Assembly (NCBI RefSeq): GCF_013340205.1
Contig: NZ_BJTG01000013.1
Coordinates: 1-64,000, forward strand
Length of the DNA stretch: 64,000 nucleotides
From: Anaeromyxobacter diazotrophicus
Lineage (GTDB): Bacteria > Myxococcota > Myxococcia > Myxococcales > Anaeromyxobacteraceae
Reading direction: 5' to 3'
Shown here: positions 40,263-41,934 of the stretch, piece after piece
Numbering within the stretch: the stretch's first letter is position 1
Layout: the number at the start of each line of letters is the position of its first letter
Notes under the pieces: model-generated
The model's input: the letters and a program-made list of their open reading frames with translations, nothing else
The model's database searches: none
Told to the model about the DNA's origin: nothing
Translations under genes and position numbers: made by a program

Positions 40263-41665
40263 TGGCCCGGCGCGGCGGGCGGGCGAAGCCGGTCTCCCGG
40301 GCGGCGCTCTCGGGCGAGGCGGACCCGCGCCTCGTCGCGCTGTCCGTCTCCATCGGCGAGGACGCGGCGCTCTTCGAGCAGGACATCCGCGGCTCGCGCG
40401 CCCACGTCGCCATGCTGGCGGCGCGGGGCCTCGTGCCGAAGGCGGCCGCGCGCCGCATCGACGCCGGGCTGGCCCAGGTGCGGGAGGAGTTCGCCGCCGG
40501 GAAGATCGCGTTCGACCCGGCGCTGGAGGACGTCCACACCCACGTCGAGCGGCGCCTGGGCGAGCTGGTGGGCCGCGACGCGGGCTACCTGCACGCCGGC
40601 CGCAGCCGCAACGACCAGGTGGCGCTCGACGAGCGGCTCTTCATCGTCGACGCCTGCGGCCAGTGCGACCAGGCGCTGGTCGCGCTCATGCGCGCGCTGC
40701 TCGGGCAGGCGCGGCGGCACGAGGCCACCCTGCTCCCCGGCTACACCCACCTGCAGCGGGCGCAGCCGGTGACGCTGGCGCACCACCTGCTGGCCTACGT
40801 CGAGGCGCTCGGGCGCGACCGGCAGCGCCTCGGCGAGGTGCGGGCGCGGGCGGCCGTCTCGCCGCTCGGCTCGGGCGCGCTGGCGGGCACGACCCTGCGC
40901 ATCGACCGCGCGCACACCGCGCGGGCGCTCGGCCTCGCCGGCGTGACGCGCAACTCGCTCGACGCCGTCTCCGACCGCGACAGCGCCATCGAGCTCGGCT
41001 TCGCCTGCGCGCTCTCGGCGGTGCACCTGTCGCGCCTCGGCGAGGAGCTCGTCCTCTGGACGACGCGCGAGTTCGGCTTCATGACGCTCTCCGACGCGTT
41101 CTCGACCGGCAGCTCGCTCATGCCGCAGAAGAAGAACCCCGACGTCGGCGAGCTGGCACGCGGCCGGGCGGGGAGCGCCGTGGGCGACCTGGTGACGCTG
41201 CTCACCCTGCCGAAGAACCTGCCGCTCTCGTACAACCGCGATCTGCAGGAGGACAAGCGGCCGCTGCTCGACGCGCCGCGGAAGCTCGCCCAGACCGCGC
41301 TGGCGCTGGCGGGCGCGGTCGAGACCGCCACCTACCACGCCGAGCGCATGGCCGAGGCGCTCGGGTCGGGCGAGGCGCTCGCCACCGACGCGGCCGAGTA
41401 CCTGGTGGAGAAGGGCGTCCGCTTCCGCGAGGCGCACGAGGCCGTGGGCGCCGCCGCCGCCTGGGCCACGCGCGAGGGGAAGGCGCTCGCCGCCCTGACC
41501 GCCGCCGAGTGGCGGCGCTTCCACCGCGCCTTCGCGCCGGACGTGGTCCGCCGCTTCGACGCGCGCGCCAGCCTGGCGCGGCGGGAGATCCCCGGCGCGC
41601 CGGGGCCGAAGCAGGTCGCGAGGCAGCTCGCCCGCTGGGAGAAGGAGCTGGGGAGGGCCGGATGA
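40262..41665 (+). CDS. argH: Argininosuccinate lyase
   Basis: Cleaves argininosuccinate to arginine and fumarate, the last step of arginine synthesis; cytoplasmic tetramer. The 467-residue length is usual. [18 protein letters not shown], the [11 protein letters not shown] block, and the superfamily signature [12 protein letters not shown] are all intact. The start overlaps the previous stop (TGATG), so translation is coupled. Confidence 0.96.
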
Positions 41666-41934
41666 GGCGCCTCGCCCTGGCCGCCGCCGCTCTCCTCGCC
41701 TGCGGGGTGAAGGCGCCGCCGCGGCCGCCGCTGCCGGAGCCGGCGGACGGGGGGGCGGGCGCGACCTCGACGTCGACCTCGACCCCGACCTCGACCCCGA
41801 CCTCGACCCCGACCTCGACCCCGACCTCGACCCCGACGCCGACCCCGACGCCGACCCCGACCCCGACCCCGACCCCGACCCCGACCCCGACCCCGACGCC
41901 GGCGAACCCGACCGCCGCGCCGCCCAGCCCATGA
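41662..41934 (+). CDS. LptM/YifL-like small lipoprotein with a Thr-Pro/Thr-Ser repeat tail
   Basis: 90 residues. The signal sequence ends in LLAC-G (Cys 14), and the mature protein begins [12 protein letters not shown], close to the CGLKGPL..P start of LptM (YifL/LppL). That protein aids disulphide maturation of the LPS translocon LptD. The position directly before lysA repeats the lppL-lysA arrangement of Pseudomonas. The rest is about 46 residues of alternating Thr with Ser or Pro, encoded by a hexamer array. The ATG overlaps the argH stop (ATGA) and its own stop overlaps the lysA ATG. No homologue search could be done. Confidence 0.75.
41761..41898. repeat. Hexanucleotide satellite, 23 units of NCGACC, inside the LptM-like gene
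   Basis: Twenty-three 6-base units in register, alternating TCGACC and CCGACC in the first half and nearly all CCGACC in the second. Each unit adds two residues (Ser-Thr or Pro-Thr), so length change keeps the reading frame. Confidence 0.95.

Follow-up and report, generated by a model that had tools for sequence, protein, structure and literature searches.

Genetic context and reading frame of the lptM-like gene

The window analyzed here is a stretch of 64,000 nucleotides from Anaeromyxobacter diazotrophicus. An open reading frame of 90 codons (41662..41934), encoding a putative small lipoprotein, lies between argH (argininosuccinate lyase, 40262..41665) and lysA (diaminopimelate decarboxylase, 41931..43214). 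It is followed behind lysA by dapA (43242..44129) and dapB (44142..44948), and all five genes are on the forward strand. The four flanking genes were taken from the list of open reading frames; the lysA product shares 72–81% identity with its orthologues in the family, and homologues of dapB, as well as of dapA behind lysA, are present in relatives. The ATG of the lipoprotein gene lies inside the argH stop (ATGA, 41662-41665) with GGGGAGG upstream, and its TGA overlaps the lysA ATG (ATGA, 41931-41934). In every complete orthologue, the coding sequence stops at the lysA start or only a few bases away from it, and most of them have the same overlap of stop and start.

The protein is made up of 34 residues, followed by 46 residues of Thr, Ser, and Pro, and ends with a further 10 residues. 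By direct reading, it begins with a short lipoprotein signal of 13 residues (41662..41700, forward strand), while the hydrophobic signals of the orthologues are longer. The mature head of 12 residues (41701..41736, forward strand) has been delimited from the conservation table of 39 orthologues, and a short linker connects it to the Thr/Ser/Pro part. The latter is encoded by a hexanucleotide satellite, (CGACCY)n, at 41762..41901 on the forward strand, as read from Tandem Repeats Finder (TRF) and from the codons. An earlier note, made from the window's letters, had described a satellite-encoded Thr-Pro/Thr-Ser tail of 46 residues between argH and lysA, and this description is exact to the residue.

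The reading frame is not a chance one, since the complete orthologues end at or near the lysA start and the head motif is single in the window's own genome. A search of the entire 4.83 Mb genome with a degenerate DNA version of CG-x-K-[GA]-x-P gives a single match, in the lipoprotein gene. Read in this frame, the tail is 65% Pro/Ala/Thr/Ser and 4% Arg, whereas Arg makes up 27–32% in both of the remaining forward frames. This difference in composition suggests that the tail has been selected to be soluble and disordered, and not to have a given sequence. Other readings of the region have been rejected. The minus-strand frames through the satellite (Gly-Ser and Val-Gly) show no conservation, and neither does an Asp-Pro frame fused to lysA, for which there is no ATG, GTG, or TTG between the upstream stop of the lysA frame and 41931.

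Similarity to LptM

LptM assists the machinery for lipopolysaccharide insertion. The head of the window protein, CGVKAP, has the lipobox Cys, a Gly at +2, and the LptM pattern CG-[hydrophobic]-K-[GA]-P. The first 32 residues score below the cut-offs of both family models, with 20.5 bits against 27.7 for NCBIfam NF047847 and 14.3 bits against 27.3 for Pfam PF13627, and the full-length protein scores 16.3 bits. On the other hand, orthologues in the same slot exceed the NF047847 cut-off of 27.7, namely one in Myxococcaceae (G050, 34.7 bits) and two others, the family member G019 (31.7 bits) and G005 (29.5 bits), each of them directly before lysA. The cut-off of the curated model is exceeded in 27 of 156 Myxococcota genomes. 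Since the window copy falls under the curated cut-offs although its direct orthologues pass, we will use the terms "LptM-like" and "positional orthologue" for this gene.

The region after the ten-residue head has 67 residues, which is within the usual limit for LptM of under 70 residues (PMC10567701). Sequence comparison shows no C-terminal region similar to that of Enterobacteriaceae LptM in the window protein. This region is poorly conserved outside Enterobacteriaceae (PMC10567701) and is therefore not defining for LptM at large. A sequence search of the PDB with the head, a very short query, gave no match.

Conservation of the head and the gene slot in Myxococcota

The earlier note had likened both the mature start and the place before lysA to LptM, and had proposed a search for CG-x-K-x-P lipoproteins upstream of lysA in Myxococcota. 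Such a search finds the head, as CG[VI][KR][GA]xPRPP, in the same slot adjoining lysA in 39 relatives, so the CGVK start is conserved and the comparison with LptM holds for the head as well as for the position. Among the 39 positional orthologues, C1, G2, and P9 are invariant, position 3 is V, I, or M, and position 4 is K or R in all 39, while P7 is found in 38 and R8 in 34. The tails of the same proteins range from 14 to 73 residues with no preferred length and have no common sequence.

The slot is also recovered from the model searches. Among the best 30 Myxococcota matches to NF047847 with loci, 24 are directly before lysA, one is directly before dapA, and the remaining five are unrelated proteins. 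In genomes where lysA has moved from the slot (G028, G034, G067, and L204/L283), the LptM-like gene stays beside dapA, upstream of it.

The Thr-Pro tail and the hexanucleotide satellite

The array at 41762-41901 consists of a 6-bp unit repeated 23.3 times with 88% matches and 0% indels, and its TRF score of 203 is by far the highest of any tandem repeat in the window. Since the repeat unit has six bases, slippage changes the length of the tail without changing the frame or the overlap with lysA. The same hexamer is found at about 25 sites in the genome, whereas a reversed control pattern is found at none. Within genes these sites mostly encode Thr-Ser/Thr-Pro linkers, but the hexamer also occurs in apparently non-coding DNA; the frames were assigned by codon-position GC and are approximate. 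Examples are C2:428613-428691 and C5:411604-411723. The window itself contains two more satellites of the GCGACC type, at 25586-25660 and 62127-62182, and for the latter a possible reading is TATSTATG, within a long open reading frame with good codon bias.

In the same-genus relative G001, the tail lacks a Thr-Pro run. Thr-rich arrays occupy this place in two other genomes, G009 and G020, with a sequence different from that of the window array, and most other relatives have Pro/Ala tails. Judged by these sequences, the Thr-Pro stalk is specific to its lineage, because the run is missing from G001 and the hexamer has expanded at about 25 places in the genome.

The partners LptD and LptE and a proposed docking model

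Both expected partners are encoded in the window genome. LptE (C2:362756-363124) was found above its cut-off, and LptD (C6:222908-225358) was found with the LptD sequence of a relative as the query. The Pfam model PF04453 alone misses LptD in most of the Anaeromyxobacteraceae, which is too divergent (for example, at loci L080, L083, and L068). In Myxococcota LptD, E. coli C173 has a Cys counterpart, a C-terminal CxC pair stands in place of C724-C725, and the gate prolines P231 and P246 are kept in all 16 aligned sequences. The divergent LptD of Anaeromyxobacteraceae keeps CxC motifs at the expected sites of the interdomain disulfides, and some family members have one further Cys near the C terminus. 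E. coli LptD E275, which has been proposed as the partner of K23 in LptM, lies in a gap-rich stretch of the Myxococcota alignment that cannot be reliably aligned. The association with LptD suggested in the earlier note thus has both partners at hand in this genome, with interdomain cysteines and gate prolines in place.

In E. coli, residues 20-29 of LptM, the first ten of the mature protein, have been seen against LptD β1-β4 (PMC12644819). LptM cut down to its N-terminal part still co-purifies, and the tail is not resolved in the structure (PMC12644819). The first ten residues of the window head correspond to this LptD-bound segment. By analogy, the window lipoprotein would receive its lipid at Cys14 and be delivered to the outer membrane, where its ten-residue head would dock at the lateral gate of LptD and at β1-β4. 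The docked head is predicted to aid the assembly of the translocon and the oxidation of the LptD interdomain disulfides; both the binding and the promotion of disulfide maturation are carried over from E. coli. The rest of the protein, rich in Pro/Ala/Thr/Ser and without a conserved sequence, would form an intrinsically disordered tail. A satellite expanding at many sites of the genome has lengthened it to 67 residues by increments that leave the frame and the lysA overlap intact, and the tail would most likely act only as a tolerated flexible spacer. We regard the gene as the probable positional orthologue of LptM in Anaeromyxobacteraceae, an LptM-like protein whose head would dock at LptD and whose tail is most likely a tolerated flexible spacer. 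Its score under both family cut-offs and its short signal of 13 residues speak against this reading.

Distribution of the head beyond Myxococcota

The pattern L/F-x-[GA]-C-G-[VIM]-K-[GA]-P-P was used for an unbiased scan of GTDB with one genome per species (84,980 species). The scan gave 103 matching stretches; among the 80 matches listed, all of which were examined, 63 are lipoprotein-like. For 47 of these 63 heads, the next gene downstream is lysA (35), dapF (9), or dapA (3), and among the other 16, seven immediately follow argH, so that argH and/or one of lysA, dapF, and dapA adjoins 54 of the 63 lipoprotein-like heads among the matches listed. The head has been found in Desulfobacterota, Bdellovibrionota, and several Alphaproteobacteria; its carriers include Desulfosarcina, Desulfatitalea, Bacteriovorax, Oligoflexia, and an NC10 bacterium. 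A homologue of argH is directly upstream of it in Desulfobacterota, NC10, Alphaproteobacteria, and Anaeromyxobacteraceae. In Firmicutes, some chance matches to the pattern occur (L154, L161, and L187).

Based on these cross-phylum neighbours and on the position of E. coli lptM before dapF, the order argH, head, lysA/dapF looks like an old one. A published survey described LptM as virtually absent outside Proteobacteria (PMC10567701). On the evidence of the pattern scan, the head is more widespread than this survey says, with the reservation that the taxa are partly inside Proteobacteria in older taxonomies. The presence of the head beside argH and lysA, dapF, or dapA in other phyla would make LptM older or more widely spread. 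What is new here is this wider spread, together with natural variants that carry fibronectin type III domains.

Other tails on the same head

In eleven of the loci (L162, L212, L196, L143, L158, L191, L215, L182, L156, L188, and L171), one or more fibronectin type III (fn3) or fn3-like domains come after a head of the LptM type, CG[VI]K[GA]PP. These fn3-tailed proteins come from Desulfobacterota and some other phyla and are mostly encoded beside argH, dapF, lysA, or dapB. The Pfam fn3 model is above its cut-off in L156, L182, L188, and L201. The AlphaFold model of L162, built with an alignment of ten relatives, has a pLDDT of 87.6 and matches fibronectin type III folds in Foldseek with a best E of 2.6e-5. 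Separately, three Oligoflexia proteins (L149, L152, and L213) combine an LptM-type head with a charged, helical-looking tail of 200-265 residues, and their genes are not beside argH or the DAP genes.

The literature disagrees on whether any LptM tail is surface-exposed (PMC13317210). Luo et al. reported a surface signal for LptM, as the work is described in PMC13317210, while a later structural study puts LptM in the periplasm (PMC13317210). With LptE in the LptD lumen, there should be no room for a folded fn3 domain, and if docking is like that in E. coli, such tails would be either periplasmic or exported unfolded. Natural variants with long Thr-Pro tails or with folded fn3 domains make the location of the tail, in the periplasm or on the surface, directly testable. 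A broader proposal, which we put forward tentatively and hold to be rather less likely than not to be right in full, is that LptM is an old component of the LPS translocon shared by Myxococcota, Desulfobacterota, Bdellovibrionota, and Pseudomonadota. It would then be modular, an unchanging plug of ten residues for the LptD gate being combined with exchangeable tails (disordered, long helical, fibronectin type III, or a satellite-encoded Thr-Pro stalk) that project into the periplasm with functions of their own.

Alternative explanations

The earlier note had suggested that a long stiff stalk would be a new form of LptM, or a length-variable surface tether. A version of this proposal draws on several observations; here the Thr-Pro stalk would be a functional, stiff, polyproline-like arm that spans the periplasm from the translocon or passes through the LptD barrel to the surface, with a length tuned by repeat slippage. 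Thr-Pro-rich arrays of differing sequence are present at the same place in the window genome, G009, and G020, a recurrence that a neutral tail alone does not explain. The frame used is always the low-Arg one rich in Pro/Ala/Thr/Ser, folded modules such as fibronectin type III serve as tails in other phyla, and the surface signal attributed to Luo et al. in PMC13317210 would fit an exposed arm. Nevertheless, the stalk is missing from the same-genus relative and from most of the family, where tail length (14-73 residues) has no preferred value, and it is made by a satellite that expands genome-wide. It also belongs to the part of the protein that E. coli LptM does not need for binding LptD (PMC12644819), and the later structural study in PMC13317210 places LptM in the periplasm. 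A functional stalk is thus unlikely, and the idea of a new form of LptM is not upheld. The variability of the tail, and the binding of the ten-residue head to LptD in E. coli with the tail unresolved, indicate that the stalk is most likely a tolerated disordered spacer.

Two further explanations concern the protein as a whole. The window protein's score under the curated cut-offs, the short and low-complexity sequence, and the chance matches in Firmicutes could all be expected of an unrelated small lipoprotein, with CG-x-K-x-P a generic start of outer-membrane lipoproteins and the match to LptM a case of convergence. This is improbable, given that the motif is single in the genome, that close orthologues are above the cut-off, and that argH or DAP genes are neighbours of 54 of the 63 heads across phyla among the matches listed. 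An even more remote explanation takes the small frame to be mainly a translational link from argH to lysA with an incidental peptide; it has in its favor the overlaps at both ends and the lack of a Shine-Dalgarno-like motif before lysA in the window genome. However, a purine-rich motif precedes lysA in 16 of 24 relatives, the gene precedes dapA or dapF where lysA is elsewhere, and the head is conserved residue by residue across phyla. An LptM-like lipoprotein with a spacer tail remains the preferred reading.

Comparison with known systems

The closest known system is E. coli LptM (formerly YifL; PF13627, NF047847). Both proteins are small and have a lipobox Cys followed by Gly, a Pro-rich head of the form CG-[LVI]-K-[GA]-P, a Pro-rich tail, and a neighbour in the diaminopimelate pathway, which is dapF in E. 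coli and lysA here. They differ in that the window lipoprotein is from Myxococcota, scores below the curated cut-off, has P-R-P-P where E. coli has L-Y-F-P, and carries a Thr-Pro satellite tail unrelated to the enterobacterial one. The fn3-tailed lipoproteins beside argH and dapF/lysA (for example, L162 in Desulfosarcina and L182 in Candidatus Adiutrix) share the head CGVK[GA]PPxPP and the gene neighbours with the window protein, but their tail folds as a fibronectin type III domain, whereas that of the window protein is predicted to be disordered. Satellite linkers of the TS/TP/TA kind are also encoded by other open reading frames of this genome. These frames contain the same hexamer, mostly in the same Thr-Ser/Thr-Pro frame, but they encode unrelated proteins that have no LptM head.
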